Positions 2,391-34,819 of a stretch of DNA of 34,819 nucleotides are shown here, piece by piece. A program made the translations under genes and the position numbers. The number at the start of each line of letters is the position of its first letter. Within the stretch, counting starts at the first letter, position 1. A model generated the notes under the pieces. The model searched no databases. It was not told the DNA's origin and saw nothing but the letters and a program-made list of their open reading frames with translations. The DNA comes from Candidatus Omnitrophota bacterium. GTDB taxonomy: Bacteria > Omnitrophota > Gorgyraeia > Gygaellales > Profunditerraquicolaceae. The stretch spans positions 1 through 34,819 of the forward strand of contig JAQTPA010000015.1 in assembly GCA_028713155.1 (NCBI GenBank). The letters are read 5' to 3'.

Positions 2391-3670
2391 TGATGAGTCA
2401 TAAAGCGTTTAATAAAATTGATCCGGGTGAGAATAAAAATGGCGCCAGCAGTTTTTACGGTTTAGGTATTGCCCCGAAGATATTGGATATCCTGGAGCGT
2501 ATAAAATTTAAGACGCCCACGCCGATACAAACAAAAGCTATTCCTCTGGCAATACAAGGAAAGGATATTATCGGAGTCGCGCAGACCGGGACCGGCAAGA
2601 CGCATTCATTCGCTATCCCCATGGTCCAGATTCTTGAGCAAAAAAAAGGCATCGGCCTGGTTCTTGCCCCTACCCGCGAGCTGGCTATTCAAATCGACGA
2701 GGCCTTTCAGGATATAGCCCGCTCTTTCGGGATGAAGACAGCTTGTCTTATCGGCGGGGCGCCGATGCCGCCGCAGGTTACGGCTTTACGCAGGAACCCC
2801 CGGATAGTGGTGGCTACTCCCGGCAGGCTTATTGACCATATGGGGCAATGGAATTTTCTTCCGGAGCAGGTTGTGATGCTTGTACTGGATGAGGCAGACC
2901 GTATGCTGGATATGGGATTTGCTCCGCAGATCAATAAGATTTTGCGTTTTTTACCCGCGGCGCGGCAAACCATGTTATTTTCGGCGACTATCCCCAAAGA
3001 AATTATGGAAATAGCCGCCAAGTATATGAAGCTTCCTGTCTCCGTAGAAATCGCTCCTTCCGGGACAACCGCAGAGCATGTTACCCAGGAATTATTTATC
3101 GTCAAGAAAGAAGCAAAGTCGCGCCTTTTGAGTAAGCTGCTTAACCAGTATAAAGGCGCGGTGCTTTTATTTTCGCGCACTAAATTTAATGCCAGAAAGA
3201 TTACGCGGGCAATTAAAGATATGGGCTATAGCGCAGCCGAAATTCACTCTAACCGGTCTTTGAGCCAGAGGAGAGAGGCCCTAGACGGTTTTAAATCCGG
3301 AAGGTATAAGGTGCTTGTCGCTACGGACATTGCCGCCAGAGGAATCGATGTGACCGGGATTGAATTGGTTATTAATTACGACCTTCCGGAAGACGCGGAG
3401 AACTACGTGCATCGTATCGGCCGCACAGCCCGGGCAGGAAAGCTGGGGCATGCGGTTTCTTTTGCCACACCCGATCAGAAAAGCGATGTCCGCGATATAG
3501 AAAAGATTATCCGGTCCACTCTCCCCGTATCCAAGCATCCCGAAATCCCGCATGAGCAATTTATTGAATCCCGGGGATCCTCTTTTCAGGCTAAGCCGCA
3601 GCAGCGCCACAATACGGACCGGCATAAATTCAACCGGCCAAGGAACGGGAATAAGAAATTCTACCGCTAA
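2390..3670 (+). CDS. DEAD-box RNA helicase (RhlE/DeaD group)
   Basis: A 426-residue ATP-dependent RNA helicase with both RecA-like domains complete. Visible motifs in order: Q motif (PTPIQ), motif I AQTGTGKT (64-71), Ia PTRELAIQ, GG, Ib TPGRLID, II DEAD within VLDEADRMLDMGF, III SAT, IV LLFSRT, V ARGID and VI HRIGRTAR. The C-terminal tail of about 50 residues is basic and low complexity (ending NRPRNGNKKFYR), as in RhlE-like proteins, and probably adds nonspecific RNA binding. The start is either of two adjacent ATG codons; the first overlaps the stop of the 48-residue zinc-knuckle ORF. With csp just upstream it likely unwinds structured mRNA or assists ribosome assembly in the cold. Confidence 0.93.
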   Translation: MMSHKAFNKIDPGENKNGASSFYGLGIAPKILDILERIKFKTPTPIQTKAIPLAIQGKDIIGVAQTGTGKTHSFAIPMVQILEQKKGIGLVLAPTRELAIQIDEAFQDIARSFGMKTACLIGGAPMPPQVTALRRNPRIVVATPGRLIDHMGQWNFLPEQVVMLVLDEADRMLDMGFAPQINKILRFLPAARQTMLFSATIPKEIMEIAAKYMKLPVSVEIAPSGTTAEHVTQELFIVKKEAKSRLLSKLLNQYKGAVLLFSRTKFNARKITRAIKDMGYSAAEIHSNRSLSQRREALDGFKSGRYKVLVATDIAARGIDVTGIELVINYDLPEDAENYVHRIGRTARAGKLGHAVSFATPDQKSDVRDIEKIIRSTLPVSKHPEIPHEQFIESRGSSFQAKPQQRHNTDRHKFNRPRNGNKKFYR

Positions 3671-28268: not shown

Positions 28269-28502
28269 ATGAAAAAAATATCCCTGGCACAAATCAAAAT
28301 GAATCGTAAGGCCAAGGTCATCGAGATCCTGGGCGGCCATAATTTACAAAACAGGCTGATGAATATGGGAGTGCACAAGGGGAGGGAACTGCTTAAACTC
28401 AGCCATATCGGTTTAAGGGGCCCGGTAGTAATTAAGGTCGGCAGGAGTATCCTGGCTTTGGGGCACGGTGTAGCTACGAAAATCATCATTGAGGCGGAAT
28501 GA
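28269..28502 (+). CDS. feoA: FeoA, ferrous iron transport accessory protein
   Basis: A 77-residue SH3-like protein. The family pattern is visible in KAKVIEILGGHNLQNRLMNMGVHKGRELLKLSHIGLRGPVVIKVGRSILALGHGVATKI, including the GxxxRLxxMG core. FeoA is cytoplasmic and supports FeoB, probably by contacting its G domain. GGAAGG precedes the ATG. Its stop overlaps the FeoB start (ATGA), giving tight coupling. Confidence 0.9.
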   Translation: MKKISLAQIKMNRKAKVIEILGGHNLQNRLMNMGVHKGRELLKLSHIGLRGPVVIKVGRSILALGHGVATKIIIEAE

Positions 28503-30229
28503 TAAAAAAAATTTATCTTATCGGTAACCCGAACGTAGGCAAGAGCGTGGTATTTTCGCGGCTTACCGGGGTGCAGGTAATCTCCTCGAATTATCCCGGT
28601 ACGACTGTGGAGATAAGTAAGGGGTATTTGCAGTTAGGCGGGGAGAGGATTGAAGTTGTGGACTTGCCGGGGACTTATTCGTTAGAGTCGACTTCCTCCG
28701 CGGAAGAGGTAGCTGTCTCTTTGTTGAAAGAATATAATAAAGACGAGATCGCGGTAATCAATATACTGGATTCGACTAATCTGGAAAGGAATTTATTGCT
28801 TACCTTGCAATTGATTGAGGGAGGATTTCCGGTAATCGCCTGCTTAAATATGTGCGATGAGGCTGGGCATAGGGGGGTCCGTATAGACATTGGGAAGTTA
28901 GAAGATATTTTACATATTCCGGTCATTTCGACCTGCGCAATAACCGGAGCGGGCATAAAATTGCTGATTGAAAGAATAAAAGAAGCAGCAGCTGTTTTCA
29001 GGGATAGGCTTACCCATGAAGAGCGCTGGAAGGAGATCGGCCGGATTATTGAGCAGGCGCAGCATCTGGAACACCGGCATCACAGTTTAAGGGAAATATT
29101 AGAGGATGTGTCGGTGCGGCCGGTAAGCGGGTTGATTATGGCAGCAGGAGTTATCTATGCCGCATTTAAGTTTGTGCGCTTTATCGGAGAAGGGATAATT
29201 AATAAATTCACCGATCCGCTATTCATTAATTTTTTCCAGCCGCTATTGGAAAAATTAACCTTCCATTGGCAGGAGAAGGGGTTCTGGTTCCATCTGCTTA
29301 TCGGCGATTTAATCAACGGCAAGATTGATTTTAAGCAGTCCCTCGGGCTCTTAACCACGGCCCCTTACATCGAATTCGGGATGGTTTTGCCTTATGTCAT
29401 ATCCTTTTATTTTGTTTTAAGCCTCTTAGAAGATATAGGGTATTTGCCCCGTCTGGCGATATTATTGGATAATCTTTTACACCGGCTGGGCCTGCATGGC
29501 TATGCGATAATCCCGGTCCTCCTGGGCCTGGGCTGTAATGTCCCGGGAATTTTAGCTACGCGCGTGCTGGAATCAAAGCGCGAAAGGTTCATCGCTTCTA
29601 CATTGATCTCTATCGGCGTGCCCTGCGTGCCTTTGCAGGCCATGATTTTCGGCCTATTGGGTAAATTCGGAGGATTTTATGTGGTAGGAGTTTATTTGGT
29701 ACTGTTTTCCTTGATTTTAATATTAGGGACAATCCTGAACCGCATATTATCCGGGTATAGCCCGGAATTTTTATTAGAAATTCCTCCTTACAGGTTTCCG
29801 CCGTTAACCATACTGGCCAGAAAACTTTTTTTTCGCATCAAAGGATTCGTTATTGAGGCAGTTCCGGTTGTCCTGCTAGGCGTTCTGGCGATAAATGTTC
29901 TTTTATACTTCAGGTTATTTGATTTTGTAACCGGCATATTTGCGCCTTTAGTCAATGGCTTGTTTGGTCTGCCCAAACAAGCGGTAGCTGCCCTGGCCAT
30001 CGGGTTTTTAAGGAAGGATGTCGCCGTAGGGATGTTAGCGCCGCTGGGGCTTTCAGTTAAGCAGCTATTTATCGCGGTAACGTTATTAGCGGTTTCTTTT
30101 CCCTGTATCGCTACTTTTATTGTATTATGGAAAGAATTGGGCGTCGGGGACGTGATTAAAGCGACCCTGTTGATGATTACTGTCAGTATTATTCTGGGCG
30201 GGACGCTTAATTTATTAATATTAAGATAG
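28499..30229 (+). CDS. feoB: FeoB, ferrous iron transporter (short form)
   Basis: A 576-residue Fe2+ importer. The N-terminal G protein domain has G1 GNPNVGKS (9-16), G2 PGTT (33-36), G3 DLPG (55-58) and G4 NMCD, followed by the GDI-like helical region and about eight to nine transmembrane helices. The first gate motif is recognisable: LGLGCNVPGILATRVLESKRERFIAS, with a Cys in CNVPG, and a second Cys in GVPCVPLQAM where larger FeoB proteins have NPFMSCGARLP. E. coli FeoB is 773 residues, so this is a compact form that lacks some insertions and possibly the C-terminal region. Ferrous uptake agrees with a reduced habitat and with iron use by superoxide reductase and Thi4. Confidence 0.9.
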   Translation: MIKKIYLIGNPNVGKSVVFSRLTGVQVISSNYPGTTVEISKGYLQLGGERIEVVDLPGTYSLESTSSAEEVAVSLLKEYNKDEIAVINILDSTNLERNLLLTLQLIEGGFPVIACLNMCDEAGHRGVRIDIGKLEDILHIPVISTCAITGAGIKLLIERIKEAAAVFRDRLTHEERWKEIGRIIEQAQHLEHRHHSLREILEDVSVRPVSGLIMAAGVIYAAFKFVRFIGEGIINKFTDPLFINFFQPLLEKLTFHWQEKGFWFHLLIGDLINGKIDFKQSLGLLTTAPYIEFGMVLPYVISFYFVLSLLEDIGYLPRLAILLDNLLHRLGLHGYAIIPVLLGLGCNVPGILATRVLESKRERFIASTLISIGVPCVPLQAMIFGLLGKFGGFYVVGVYLVLFSLILILGTILNRILSGYSPEFLLEIPPYRFPPLTILARKLFFRIKGFVIEAVPVVLLGVLAINVLLYFRLFDFVTGIFAPLVNGLFGLPKQAVAALAIGFLRKDVAVGMLAPLGLSVKQLFIAVTLLAVSFPCIATFIVLWKELGVGDVIKATLLMITVSIILGGTLNLLILR

Positions 30230-30239
30230 GGTTTTTATT

Positions 30240-30971
30240 ATGAAAAATATTTTTAAGAAAATAGGTCTAATTTTTATATTTTTTATTATTTTAGCCGTTA
30301 TTTTCTTTGTAATCTCATTATTTTTTGATGAAGCGGTCCTGGTGCGCAAGGGGACATTTTACCGCGCTCAGCGAGCGGATAAAGTGGTGGCCCTGACTTT
30401 CGATGACGGGCCTAGCCCTATCTGGACTCCGCAGGTATTAGATGAGCTCAAAAAAGCAGAGGTAAAGGCTACCTTTTTTATGCTCGGGAGCCATGTAGAA
30501 AGATACCCGGCAATTGCCAGGCGCGTTTTAGCGGAAGGCCATGAAATTGGCAACCATACCTATGACCACCATGTCTTGATCTATTATAAGATGGAGGAAT
30601 TGGAAAAAGAAATCCAGGAAGCGGAAGATGCGATTAAGGCCGTGACTGGCCAATCTCCCAGATATTTCAGACCTCCCAAGGCCTGGCTTTCCTCCAGGGA
30701 AAAGAAAAAGATAGAAGAAATGGGGTATAAAATTGTATTATGGTCATTGAATTCCAAGGACTGGGTGACTTTCCACGATAAACAGATTACCTCCTACATT
30801 TTAAAACGTATTCAGCCCGGGGACATTATTCTCTTTCATGACAGCGGAGGGGTTTTCACCGCCGAAGGAGGAAATCGCGCTCAGACAGTTAAAACTATCC
30901 CCCGGTTAGTCAGGAAATTAAAGGAAAGGGGCTATAGGTTCGTGACAATTAGCGAGCTTATGGATAAATAG
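30240..30971 (+). CDS. Membrane-anchored polysaccharide deacetylase (NodB domain)
   Basis: A 243-residue hydrolase with one N-terminal anchor (about residues 8-29), so the catalytic domain faces the periplasm. NodB motifs: TFDDGPS (D55 and D56, base and metal ligand), HTYDH (H106 and H110, metal ligands), RPPK (usually RPPYG), a DW motif in LNSKDW and FHDSGG near the end. The active site looks complete. It removes acetyl groups from an N-acetylated glycan such as peptidoglycan or an exopolysaccharide. The gene follows FeoB after ten bases and is followed after 34 bases by a beta-lactamase-like gene, so a cell-wall role is likely. Confidence 0.9.
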   Translation: MKNIFKKIGLIFIFFIILAVIFFVISLFFDEAVLVRKGTFYRAQRADKVVALTFDDGPSPIWTPQVLDELKKAEVKATFFMLGSHVERYPAIARRVLAEGHEIGNHTYDHHVLIYYKMEELEKEIQEAEDAIKAVTGQSPRYFRPPKAWLSSREKKKIEEMGYKIVLWSLNSKDWVTFHDKQITSYILKRIQPGDIILFHDSGGVFTAEGGNRAQTVKTIPRLVRKLKERGYRFVTISELMDK

Positions 30972-31005
30972 CGCTGCTCAGCCATGGGTAATCTTTATAA
31001 AAGCT

Positions 31006-31935
31006 ATGCAAAGAAAAATAATACTGTTAATAATTGCTTTTTCTTTTTTTGGTAGTGGCCTATTTTTTTCATATAAGGCATATAAGAATTATCAGGCGCT
31101 TAAAATATTAGAGAAAAGAAAAGAAGCCTGGTTGGCCTTAGAGAAAAAGCTGCAGGCTAAAACCCTGCGTTTTCCAGGCACGGTCAGCGTAGTAATTAAA
31201 GACCTGGATACCGGCTGGGAGATAATGCAAAATGACGAAATTGCGATCCCCTCGGCAAGTTTAGTCAAAATTCCTATTATGTTTTCTTACTTTTATGCCA
31301 ACCAGGAAGGCCGGGTAAGTTTCAAAGATACCTTAATCCTTAAGGGTAGCGATAAGGTAGCCGGATCAAAAGTATTGGGAGATTTTCCTGCTGGGAGCCG
31401 CTTTACGGTGGGAGAGTTGCTGGTCCCCATGATTACCCAAAGCGATAATTCTGCTACTAACCTCCTCATAGGCTTCTTAGGTTTGGATAGTTTAAACGCG
31501 TATTTTAAGAAGATGGGGCTCAAAAACACGAACTTGGCGCGCAAGATGCTGGACTTTAAAGAAAGAAGAAGAGGCAGGGAGAATTATACTACTGCCCAGG
31601 ATATGGCTTTTTTACTGGAAAAGCTTTATCATAAAGAATTCTTAAATAAAGAAGTTTCCGAACAATGCCTGATGCTGCTTGGCGAACAGAAGATTAACGA
31701 TCGTATCCCCAAAAAACTCCCCAAAGACGGGACATTTATCTGCCATAAGACCGGCTTAGAGAGGCATATCTGCCATGACGTGGGGATAGTTTATACCCGT
31801 AAAGGCAATTTTTTGATCTGTGTTTTAGTCCATCATAAAGACAAGACGGCTGTACGCGCAAAAAAACTTATTTCGGATATTGCCTTGTTTACCTATAATT
31901 ATTATCAGAATCAGTCAGCTCGCGCCTATAATTGA
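31006..31935 (+). CDS. Class A beta-lactamase-like serine hydrolase
   Basis: A 309-residue protein with an N-terminal anchor (about 5-22) and a penicillin-recognising fold. Active-site motifs: S85-L-V-K88 (S-x-x-K), S146-D147-N148 and K248-T249-G250. In class A enzymes a glutamate (Glu166) in the omega loop activates water; here the loop FKERRRGRENYTTAQDMA is shorter and its glutamates (185, 192) do not sit at the expected distance, so true beta-lactamase activity is uncertain. A D,D-peptidase or other cell-wall hydrolase fits as well. No clear Shine-Dalgarno precedes the ATG. It follows the polysaccharide deacetylase and precedes the PhoB-like regulator by 16 bases. Confidence 0.8.
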   Translation: MQRKIILLIIAFSFFGSGLFFSYKAYKNYQALKILEKRKEAWLALEKKLQAKTLRFPGTVSVVIKDLDTGWEIMQNDEIAIPSASLVKIPIMFSYFYANQEGRVSFKDTLILKGSDKVAGSKVLGDFPAGSRFTVGELLVPMITQSDNSATNLLIGFLGLDSLNAYFKKMGLKNTNLARKMLDFKERRRGRENYTTAQDMAFLLEKLYHKEFLNKEVSEQCLMLLGEQKINDRIPKKLPKDGTFICHKTGLERHICHDVGIVYTRKGNFLICVLVHHKDKTAVRAKKLISDIALFTYNYYQNQSARAYN

Positions 31936-31951: not shown

Positions 31952-32647
31952 ATGATGGAGAAAATTTTAATCGTAGAAGACGAAAAAGACATAGTGAAAA
32001 TGCTGGAGTATAATTTCAAAAAAGAGGGATTTACCCCTCTTTCTGTTACTAACGGTGATGATGCTTTGGATGCGGCGGTCAGGCATCAACCGGGACTTAT
32101 TATCCTTGACCTTATGCTTCCCGGGATGAACGGTTTAGAAGTTTGTAAAGCCCTAAAAAATGAAAGAAAGACCTCAGGTATCCCGGTAATTATGCTCACT
32201 GCGAAGGCTCAGGAATCAGATAAGATTGTTGGCCTGGAATTGGGAGCTGATGATTATGTGACCAAGCCTTTCAGCCCCCGTGAACTTATTGCCAGGACCA
32301 AAGCGGTCTTACGCCGCGTAAAAGAAAAGGATAAACTCCCGGAAGTATTTAAGGCGGGCGATTTAACCCTGGATTTTTCCAGGATAAGCGTAATGGTTAA
32401 AGATAAACTCGTTGAGCTAACCGCAAAAGAATTTGAATTACTGAAAACTTTGATTGGTGTAAAAGGCAGGGTTCTTTCCAGGGATTACCTTTTGGATAAT
32501 ATCTGGGGTTTTGACCATGCCATTGAAATACAGACCCGAACTGTTGATGTGCATATACGGACTTTGCGCAAGAAATTAAAAAGCGAGGCAAAGCGTATTA
32601 TTACCGTTAAAAATTACGGGTACCGTTTTGATAGGGAGGAGGATTAG
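31952..32647 (+). CDS. phoB: OmpR/PhoB-family response regulator
   Basis: A 231-residue two-component regulator. The receiver has the acidic pocket E9-D10-E11, phosphoacceptor D53 (LDLMLPG), T83 and K105 (TKPFSP). The C-terminal winged helix (about 135-228) ends with VDVHIRTLRKKL and ITVKNYGYRF, the OmpR/PhoB signature. AGGGGGAA precedes a double ATG. The stop overlaps the kinase GTG by one base (TAGTG), so the pair is translationally coupled. PhoB-like identity is inferred from overall similarity and the PhoR-like kinase; the phosphate link is supported only by Pho-box-like repeats at 34446. Confidence 0.88.
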   Translation: MMEKILIVEDEKDIVKMLEYNFKKEGFTPLSVTNGDDALDAAVRHQPGLIILDLMLPGMNGLEVCKALKNERKTSGIPVIMLTAKAQESDKIVGLELGADDYVTKPFSPRELIARTKAVLRRVKEKDKLPEVFKAGDLTLDFSRISVMVKDKLVELTAKEFELLKTLIGVKGRVLSRDYLLDNIWGFDHAIEIQTRTVDVHIRTLRKKLKSEAKRIITVKNYGYRFDREED

Positions 32648-34422
32648 TGCGGTTTCGCAAGAGCTTCAAATACAGGCTGTTTTTTTCTTATATAGCGGTA
32701 ATCCTTATTTCATTCGGGCTTACCGCATTTTTTCTGGATAAGCAATTAGAAAACCATTCGCTTCAAGGCCTTAAGAGTTCCATTGTTACCCAAGCCCGGC
32801 TTATTGAAAGCCAGATCCCGCCTGAAAGCCTAAAGAAAGAAAATACCGCCAATCTAGGAGTCTTGGTTAAAAACCTCAGCCTAAAGAATAAATCCCGCAT
32901 CACCATTATTGATGATCAGGGGAAGGTTTTGACTGATTCAGAACTGTCTCCAGGCGAAGTTTTAGATATAGATAACCACGCTACTCGTCCGGAAGTAAGA
33001 GCAGCCTTAAAGGGATTAACCGGTGATAGTATACGATATTCAGCAACCCTTAAAACCGATATGTTATATGTGGCTTTGCCGATTATGGGTAAAGACGGCG
33101 TAGTTGGGATAATCAGGATAGCTTTACCGGTAGCCAATGTTCAGAAGATCATGTTCGCTATCCGCAAAACGATTATACTCAATATCTTTTTTGCGTTGGG
33201 ATTAGCGTTTATTTTAGCCTATGTTTTAATGACGAGTATCTCCCGGCCCCTGAATAAGATTATCAATGTTTCGCGCAGGTTTGCGGGGGGCGATTTTAGC
33301 CAAAGGATATACTATGATTCACATGATGAAATCGGCGAGCTTTCTTCCACATTAAACAAAATGGCTCAGGATATAGAAGGCAAGGTCAAGGAGATAGAAA
33401 TACAAAACCAGCAGCTTAAAACCATTTTTCAGAACATGGTTGAAGGTATAATTGTTGCGGATAAATCCGGATGCATAGTTTCGGTTAATCAGGCTATCGA
33501 AGGGATATTCAATATTGAAAGCCGTAAAACTAAGGGTAGGCCATTTTTAGAGGTTATCCGTAATACTGATATGGCTGAGATTATCAGGATAGTTCTGGAC
33601 GAAAGAAAATTTGTCTCAAGCGAGCTTTCGCTTGCTTATCCGGTACAGAGGGTATTCCAGGTTAATGCTTCACCCGTATTCGAAAAAGATCAGATAAGTG
33701 GATGCCTCCTAGTCATCCATGACGTAAGCGAGATTAGAAGGTTAGAGAATATCCGCCGCGATTTTGTAGCTAATGTATCGCATGAGCTAAAAACCCCTCT
33801 TACTTCCATAAGGGGTTTTGTGGAGACGCTTCTCGGTGGCGCGCTTGACGATAAAGAAAACAATCTTAATTTCTTAAAGATAATCCAAAATCACGCTGAG
33901 CGCCTGGATACTTTAGTTGATGACCTGCTTTCTTTATCCCACCTTGAGTCAAAGGAGATAGCGTTGGCTCTTGAGGATTTTAACTTGCACCATGAGCTTG
34001 ATGAGATCATTTCGGGATTTAGGTCTCAGTTAAAAAAGAAAGGCGTCACGATAAAGAATGAGTTCCCGCCGGATATCTCGCTGAGAGCGGATAAAGGCAG
34101 GATAAAACAGGTATTTACCAATCTTATTGATAACGCCGTAAAATTTAATAAAGAAAAAGGTTTGATTAGGATTTATGCCCAGGAATTTAACGGAAGAATA
34201 AAAATTATCGTGGAAGATTCCGGTAGCGGTATCCCCACAAAAGATATTCCGCGTATTTTTGAGCGTTTCTACCGGGTGGATAAAGCGCGCTCGCGCGAAC
34301 TCGGCGGGACAGGCCTGGGTTTGTCTATTGTTAAACACATCGTGGAATTGCACGCGGGCTCCGTCGGAGTGGAAAGCACCGAAGGCCTGGGCTCAAAATT
34401 TTTCTTCATTCTCCCCAAGTAA
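32647..34422 (+). CDS. phoR: PhoR-like sensor histidine kinase
   Basis: A 591-residue kinase using a GTG start that overlaps the regulator's stop. Domains in order: TM1 (about 10-29), periplasmic sensor of about 145 residues, TM2 (about 174-198), HAMP (ISRPLNKIINVSRRF...), a PAS domain (about 255-360, IFQNMVEGIIVADKSG), HisKA with H-box VSHELKTPLTSIRGF, and HATPase with N-box LIDNAVKFN, G1 DSGSGIP, F-box FERFYRVDKARS and G2 GGTGLGLSI. This is the architecture of PhoR and WalK-like kinases. The signal is unknown. It should phosphorylate the preceding regulator. Confidence 0.92.
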   Translation: MRFRKSFKYRLFFSYIAVILISFGLTAFFLDKQLENHSLQGLKSSIVTQARLIESQIPPESLKKENTANLGVLVKNLSLKNKSRITIIDDQGKVLTDSELSPGEVLDIDNHATRPEVRAALKGLTGDSIRYSATLKTDMLYVALPIMGKDGVVGIIRIALPVANVQKIMFAIRKTIILNIFFALGLAFILAYVLMTSISRPLNKIINVSRRFAGGDFSQRIYYDSHDEIGELSSTLNKMAQDIEGKVKEIEIQNQQLKTIFQNMVEGIIVADKSGCIVSVNQAIEGIFNIESRKTKGRPFLEVIRNTDMAEIIRIVLDERKFVSSELSLAYPVQRVFQVNASPVFEKDQISGCLLVIHDVSEIRRLENIRRDFVANVSHELKTPLTSIRGFVETLLGGALDDKENNLNFLKIIQNHAERLDTLVDDLLSLSHLESKEIALALEDFNLHHELDEIISGFRSQLKKKGVTIKNEFPPDISLRADKGRIKQVFTNLIDNAVKFNKEKGLIRIYAQEFNGRIKIIVEDSGSGIPTKDIPRIFERFYRVDKARSRELGGTGLGLSIVKHIVELHAGSVGVESTEGLGSKFFFILPK

Positions 34423-34445
34423 GTCTTTTTGACCCTCTAAAAAAC

Positions 34446-34499
34446 TTTACCTATATTTTACCTGTCCTTGAAGCGCATTTAACGCCCTTCCTTTATACT
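34446..34499 (+). promoter_or_regulatory. Pho-box-like direct repeats with -10 box
   Basis: Four units in 11-base register: TTTACC (34446), TTTACC (34457), TTGAAG (34468) and TTAACG (34479), ending about ten bases before TATACT (34494-34499). No -35 box exists. TTNA repeats at 11-base spacing immediately upstream of a -10 element are how PhoB/PhoP-class regulators activate transcription. Confidence 0.55.
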
Positions 34500-34505
34500 T
34501 TAGCC

Positions 34506-34613
34506 ATGAAAAGAAAAATCAGGAAATTATGGCTAAGGTTAATCCGCAGTATAAAAAAGCTTATCGACGATGAAATGCTAGAGATGGATTATTTTTACCG
34601 GCAATACGCTTAA
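34506..34613 (+). CDS. 35-residue basic amphipathic peptide ORF
   Basis: A short ORF (MKRKIRKLWLRLIRSIKKL... ending YFYRQYA) absent from the track. The first 20 residues form a strongly basic amphipathic helix with hydrophobic residues at I5, L8, W9, L10, L12, I13, I16, L19 and I20, which could bind membrane or nucleic acid. The ATG sits seven bases after the -10 box, so the mRNA would be leaderless. The next response-regulator ATG comes three bases after its stop and has no Shine-Dalgarno, which suggests reinitiation after this ORF. The function is unknown. Confidence 0.45.
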   Translation: MKRKIRKLWLRLIRSIKKLIDDEMLEMDYFYRQYA

Positions 34614-34616
34614 CAC

Positions 34617-34819
34617 ATGAAAGACACCGCTAAGATTATTATTGTAGAAGACGATAAAGATATCAGCGGGCTTATCGCGTACAATTTGCGTAAGGAAGAG
34701 TTTTTAGTAGAGCAGGTTTTTGACGGTTACGCTGCGGCCGATAAAATAAGGAGCACGCATTTTGATATAGCGATAGTTGATATTATGCTCCCGGGCATTG
34801 ATGGATTCGATATCTGTAG
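34617..34819 (+). CDS. Second response regulator, truncated by window end
   Basis: The start of a receiver domain (67 residues visible): IIIVEDDKDISGLIAYNLRKEEF, with acidic pocket E-D-D and phosphoacceptor Asp in IVDIMLPGIDG. It resembles the PhoB-like regulator at 31952 but is a different gene. Translation continues past the end of the window, so the output domain is unknown. It lacks its own ribosome site and appears coupled to the 35-residue ORF. Confidence 0.85.
   Translation, partial: MKDTAKIIIVEDDKDISGLIAYNLRKEEFLVEQVFDGYAAADKIRSTHFDIAIVDIMLPGIDGFDIC

Follow-up and report, generated by a model that had tools for sequence, protein, structure and literature searches.

A Pho-box promoter in Candidatus Omnitrophota followed by a conserved 35-residue protein and a receiver gene, the arrangement that heads pst operons in its relatives

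A PhoB/PhoP-type Pho box repeats every 11 bp, each repeat made up of a conserved 7-base unit, such as CTGTCAT in E. coli or GTTCACC in S. coelicolor (the Streptomyces motif), and 4 variable bases (PMC4415409). PhoR is a binding target of small DUF1127 proteins, which dampen the expression of pst genes (PMC12501420). Kinases are sequestered, and thresholds set, by non-cognate receivers (PMC10368727), and single-domain response regulators, MrrA among them, serve as sinks, hubs, or sequestering partners (PMC5964349; PMC10368727).

We describe a site in a Candidatus Omnitrophota genome that has likenesses to and differences from each of these systems. Its promoter, like those with PhoB/PhoP-type Pho boxes, consists of direct repeats of 7 plus 4 bases that adjoin phoBR and, in relatives, lie upstream of pst genes; in some of the relatives the units read GTTCACA, which comes close to the Streptomyces motif. 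Unlike the described boxes, the four units here are of mixed sequence with a usually divergent third unit (CTTGAAG or CTTAAGG), and the transcript would begin, here as well as in many other genera, at the first gene's own ATG. That gene, like DUF1127/YjiS, encodes a small protein (35 versus about 47 to 54 amino acids) linked by position to PhoR/pst control; unlike DUF1127/YjiS, it belongs to a family in which none of 28 members matches a DUF1127 model at an E value of ≤1, and it sits inside the pst operon. The second gene appears, like the known single-domain response regulators, to encode a receiver only, with an intact active site. Unlike MrrA-type regulators, it stands behind a Pho array, is the second gene of a pst operon, and adjoins phoBR. 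The known part of the site is an ordinary Pho promoter; what is new is the small protein, conserved class-wide, and the receiver-only gene with it at the start of the pst operon.

The window, meaning the whole stretch of 34,819 nucleotides analyzed here, is all of one contig (C23) of a 1.23-Mb genome in 48 contigs, from an assembly of 90% completeness. Genome searches returned no bases past position 34819, from which we place the contig end there; the last gene of the window is cut by it after 67 codons. All features described below are on the forward strand. A PhoB-type response regulator with a receiver (PF00072) and a winged helix (PF00486) occupies 31952 to 32647 and is the presumed activator of the Pho array. 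It is followed at 32647 to 34422 by a PhoR-type sensor kinase with Cache-like, HAMP, PAS, HisKA, and HATPase_c domains (Pfam), an order kept in relatives. The sequence-only reading had placed the array directly after a PhoB/PhoR-type pair, and these domain assignments bear it out. Just 5' of phoB, at 28499 to 31935, the translations read as a FeoB-like GTPase transporter, a polysaccharide deacetylase-like protein, and a class A beta-lactamase-like protein. Elsewhere in the same genome (contig C17, near 3224 to 3415), a receiver-like match lies inside a giant open frame of 10,499 codons.

The array spans 34445 to 34484 and holds four 7-bp units in an 11-bp register: CTTTACC (34445 to 34451), TTTTACC (34456 to 34462), CTTGAAG (34467 to 34473), and TTTAACG (34478 to 34484), separated by the spacers TATA, TGTC, and CGCA. 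A -10 box, TATACT, follows at 34494 to 34499, and no -35 hexamer is needed because the fourth unit occupies its place. Four TTNA units in 11-bp register occur once in the window against 0.02 expected by chance, and the same array with a TANNNT at the right distance occurs once against 0.00 expected; nowhere else in the genome does the pattern recur, even with three mismatches allowed. A Pho position weight matrix (PWM) trained on other genomes, with the window's own genome left out, gave 63.0 bits at 34445; the next-best site in the window scored -1.5, and the best score among ten simulated windows was 4.9. The sequence-only reading of four TTNA units in 11-base register, followed at the proper distance by a -10 box and lacking a -35, therefore describes a real array.

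This layout, four units in 11-bp steps and a -10 box at an unchanged offset, recurs in 28 of the 29 loci that encode the small protein, across many genera, which sustains the claim of a Pho-box promoter. Two flavors of array are found: one with TTTTACC-type units, in which the third unit is usually CTTGAAG, and one with GTTCACA-type units, in which the third is CTTAAGG or TTTAAGG. As in described Pho boxes, there are at least two direct repeats of the 7 plus 4 type, they are placed in the -35 region, and phosphate-acquisition genes lie downstream in the relatives. Array anatomy and conservation together point to binding by PhoB. Unit by unit, TTNA is a weak pattern, and an AT-rich spacer could in principle have produced an accidental TTNA spacing and a spurious open reading frame (ORF); yet only 0.02 arrays are expected per window, the PWM score is 63 bits, and array and ORF are conserved class-wide. 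This conservation refutes the chance reading, to which we give next to no probability. We take the site to be a real and conserved one that looks functional. A PWM search for a Pho array upstream of phoB, as autoregulation would call for, found none here or in the relatives.

The first gene behind the promoter is an ORF for a 35-amino-acid protein, MKRKIRKLWLRLIRSIKKLIDDEMLEMDYFYRQYA, at 34506 to 34613, whose first codon lies 6 nt past TATACT. Thirteen loci have a gap of exactly 6 nt between the -10 box and the ATG, three have one of 7 to 10 nt, and twelve have one of 21 to 30 nt. A Shine-Dalgarno (SD) sequence of at least 4 bases is present in 0 of the 13 loci with the 6-nt gap versus 10 of the 12 with the 21- to 30-nt gap. 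With 13 loci at 6 nt and no SD and 12 at 21 to 30 nt mostly with one, the distribution speaks well for leaderless translation, in agreement with the earlier description of the short ORF as apparently leaderless. Judged by this geometry, a single gene behind a single promoter would be leaderless in some loci and SD led in others, and in this genus the protein would be made from a leaderless mRNA.

Homologues of the ORF were found in 29 genomes, all of one class; a sample of the wider phylum added none from outside it. Identity to the same-genus homologues is 77% (G003) and 74% (G004), and the 28 aligned members run nearly all without internal gaps over 35 residues. The consensus is MxKxI...LKxxIxEExxxMDxFYxQYx, with its best-conserved part at the C terminus (EE...MDxFYxQ), past which the stop position differs by 1 to 3 residues among members. 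A dN/dS ratio of about 0.28 (nonsynonymous 0.17 versus synonymous 0.60), with only 35 codons behind it, indicates purifying selection. Conservation of the short ORF, a check proposed with the sequence-only reading, is thus met with throughout one class. AlphaFold2 predicts a single helix over residues 2 to 34 (pLDDT 91.6), and 25 of the 28 members are amphipathic. The product had been called a 35-residue amphipathic basic peptide, of which length and amphipathicity stand; because net charge varies among members between -4 and +6, the basic character is a trait of this genus and not of the family, whose common traits are a positive N-terminal half, a negative C-terminal half, and amphipathicity. 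Pfam and NCBIfam profiles gave no family match for any of the 28 members, and membership in DUF1127 was rejected with the models of both libraries. We found no description of the peptide in the open-access literature. The ORF encodes a conserved, previously undescribed protein. Two tandem copies are present in one genome (G069), locus L073 holds two tandem ORFs, and locus L061 (634 to 822, reverse strand) carries a 62-amino-acid ORF, MKAFFNKIIYTVRNFLDRMASQEAERIIKYYSQIF..., that resembles a longer form of the peptide.

The second gene begins at 34617 and encodes a response regulator receiver (PF00072 only), of which the first 67 codons, to 34819, are visible. Its phospho-acceptor, Asp55, is the codon at 34779 to 34781, and the visible part is 73% identical to 135-amino-acid orthologues in the same-genus genomes G003 and G004. 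The contig ends at codon 67, so the presence or absence of an output domain cannot be read from the window itself. In the relatives, a CheY/Spo0F-like, single-domain architecture was found in 23 of 23 receivers by Pfam, one of which (L051) has a further stretch without a recognized domain. By orthology, the window receiver would likewise lack a winged-helix output domain. The active site (acidic pair, phospho-Asp, Thr/Ser, and Lys) is intact in all 23, and the receiver can presumably be phosphorylated. GADD-D and AR-R are lost in all 23, and REL-E and the final R are replaced in most or all; the same four elements, which we take to be the charged residues of the PhoB-type receiver dimer face, are kept in 19 to 20 of 20 full-length neighbors. 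With neither a winged helix in the orthologues nor an intact dimer face, the gene departs from the OmpR/PhoB family. The receivers form one clade separate from the receivers of the neighboring full-length regulators, with support of 100/100. We considered the gene as a recent truncated copy of the adjacent phoB and rejected this, as the receivers make up their own clade across the whole class. No receiver-only genes in pst operons were found in the open-access literature.

These results bear on the proposal that PhoB turns on two products, a further DNA-binding regulator and a peptide modulating that regulator. Three loci (L049 at about 3705, L051 at about 3931, and L053 at about 3380, in forward-oriented coordinates) do hold, near the site, a second Pho array before a full-length regulator with receiver and Trans_reg_C domains, and there a true relay is possible. 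The regulator in the window instead has stand-alone receivers as its orthologues, none of the 23 with an output domain, and a receiver of this kind cannot itself bind promoters, which makes a transcriptional relay unlikely. Peptide and receiver are, moreover, each found without the other: the peptide alone in seven genomes (G042, G194, G291, G069, G079, G153, and G278) and the receiver alone in two. They therefore need not act only on each other. We consider the relay very improbable for this site, and the sequence-only proposal of a second response regulator serving as one gives way to a unit that is the head of a pst operon. In several relatives an extra full-length regulator sits between phoR and the peptide gene; it is absent from the window.

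The spacing between the first two genes suggests how the second may be translated. In this genus, the receiver starts 3 nt past the peptide stop and has no SD, in agreement with the earlier remark that the following regulator lacks its own ribosome site, and both features fit the reinitiation suggested with it. The same spacing could also mean that the peptide is a cis-acting leader, whose translation, or ribosome arrest at its C terminus, sets translation downstream. The peptide is the first ORF and putatively leaderless in many genera, and its C terminus is its most conserved part, as is the case in arrest peptides. However, the stop varies by 1 to 3 residues past the motif, the distance to the next gene ranges from 3 nt to more than 50 nt across loci, many relatives' receivers carry strong SDs, the gap in the window is too short for an attenuator, and amino acid conservation reaches through the amphipathic half. 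We regard a cis-acting leader as decidedly unlikely.

Relatives continue into pst genes past the point where the window ends, and the site is therefore the head of a pst operon. In G003 and G004, which have the same peptide-receiver spacing as the window, the order is phoB, phoR, the array, the 35-amino-acid peptide, the receiver, a porin, pstS(CAB), and phoU, and this order recurs in other genera. The Porin_5 porin and PstS were assigned by Pfam, and the permease genes, PstB, and PhoU by reading translations. The pst genes that the sequence-only reading named as support if met beyond 34819 are thus present in relatives, together with the porin and phoU. Searches of the window's own assembly with porin, PhoU, and PstS proteins gave no match, and its pst operon is therefore known to us through the relatives. 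Used as a query in the search that missed the window's genome, PstS did match G003, G012, and G002, so the operon was probably lost in an assembly gap at the contig end.

Peptide and receiver are not universal companions of pst. Neither the peptide nor PstS found a match in the same-genus genomes G001, G005, and G006, and the pst operon of G002 comes without peptide and receiver, which shows the pair to be dispensable. Several variations were observed around these operons. G012 (L048) has two tandem pst operons, each with its own array, with the peptide and receiver only in the first. A conserved Cys-rich ORF of 66 amino acids, MCPCLSSKSKYATC..., without a Pfam match, lies just after the receiver or peptide in L061 (819 to 1025, reverse), L062 (1256 to 1456, reverse), and L064 (2076 to 2276, forward). 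A conserved ORF of 60 to 79 amino acids lies upstream of the porin in L059 (2111 to 2308, forward), L060 (807 to 995, reverse), L066 (2068 to 2307, forward), and L072 (748 to 933, reverse); its motif is IRKDFLASNLRSQLxRLSSILDNIEEE, and the copy searched had no Pfam match.

Residence in such an operon could also mean that the peptide is an accessory subunit or stabilizer of the Pst permease or porin, with a structural and not a signaling role. Its apparent cotranscription with porin and pst genes, its retention without the receiver, and an amphipathic helix suited to a membrane surface agree with this. On the other hand, no member has a transmembrane segment, mean hydrophobicity being near or below zero, and the peptide was lost in G018 and G026 despite their pst operons. 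A structural role seems unlikely to us, if somewhat less so than a cis-acting leader.

We rather favor a reading in which the site comprises a pst operon promoter under PhoB control and the first two genes behind it, both encoding modulators of PhoR/Pst signaling. Under phosphate limitation, PhoR would phosphorylate PhoB, and two PhoB dimers, as the anatomy and conservation of the array suggest, would occupy the four 11-bp units and bring RNA polymerase to the -10 box without a -35. In this genus, the fixed geometry suggests that the transcript would begin on, or directly beside, the start codon of the 35-amino-acid ORF and be translated without a leader, with the receiver probably following by termination-reinitiation and then, in relatives, the porin, pstSCAB, and phoU. 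The small protein would form an amphipathic helix with a conserved acidic and aromatic C terminus and most likely works in trans as a modulator, binding to the PhoR-PhoU-Pst complex or the adjacent inner membrane; for a small protein that acts on PhoR, DUF1127 is a precedent (PMC12501420). The receiver most likely takes phosphoryl groups from PhoR, acting as a PhoB-induced sink or sequestering partner in negative feedback, or else signals to a protein target. With PhoR as the candidate partner feeding the receiver, PhoR~P would be drained or sequestered and the response damped, an effect demonstrated for non-cognate regulators on other kinases (PMC10368727), although nothing favors PhoR over another kinase. 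As no array was found upstream of phoB, the levels of receiver and peptide would rise over that of PhoB when phosphate is limiting.

As the first genes of pst operons in relatives, peptide and receiver probably tune the phosphate starvation response, with functions that would amount to feedback on PhoR/Pst signaling. More tentatively, and with appreciably less confidence than in the reading above, we propose that this undescribed family of about 35 residues, the leaderless first product of PhoB-driven pst operons, is a PhoR/Pst modulator that evolved independently of DUF1127 and forms with its PhoB-induced, receiver-only partner a two-part feedback brake. Annotation mostly overlooks the small proteins by which sensor kinases are steered, and here a small protein conserved class-wide, in neither of the profile libraries searched, is tied by position to the phosphate response. 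The receiver that accompanies it retains the phosphorylation site and has lost any output. The family offers a second candidate, unrelated to DUF1127, for the recent idea that small proteins gate PhoR, and its leaderless and SD-led forms, one gene behind one promoter, would provide a clean natural comparison.
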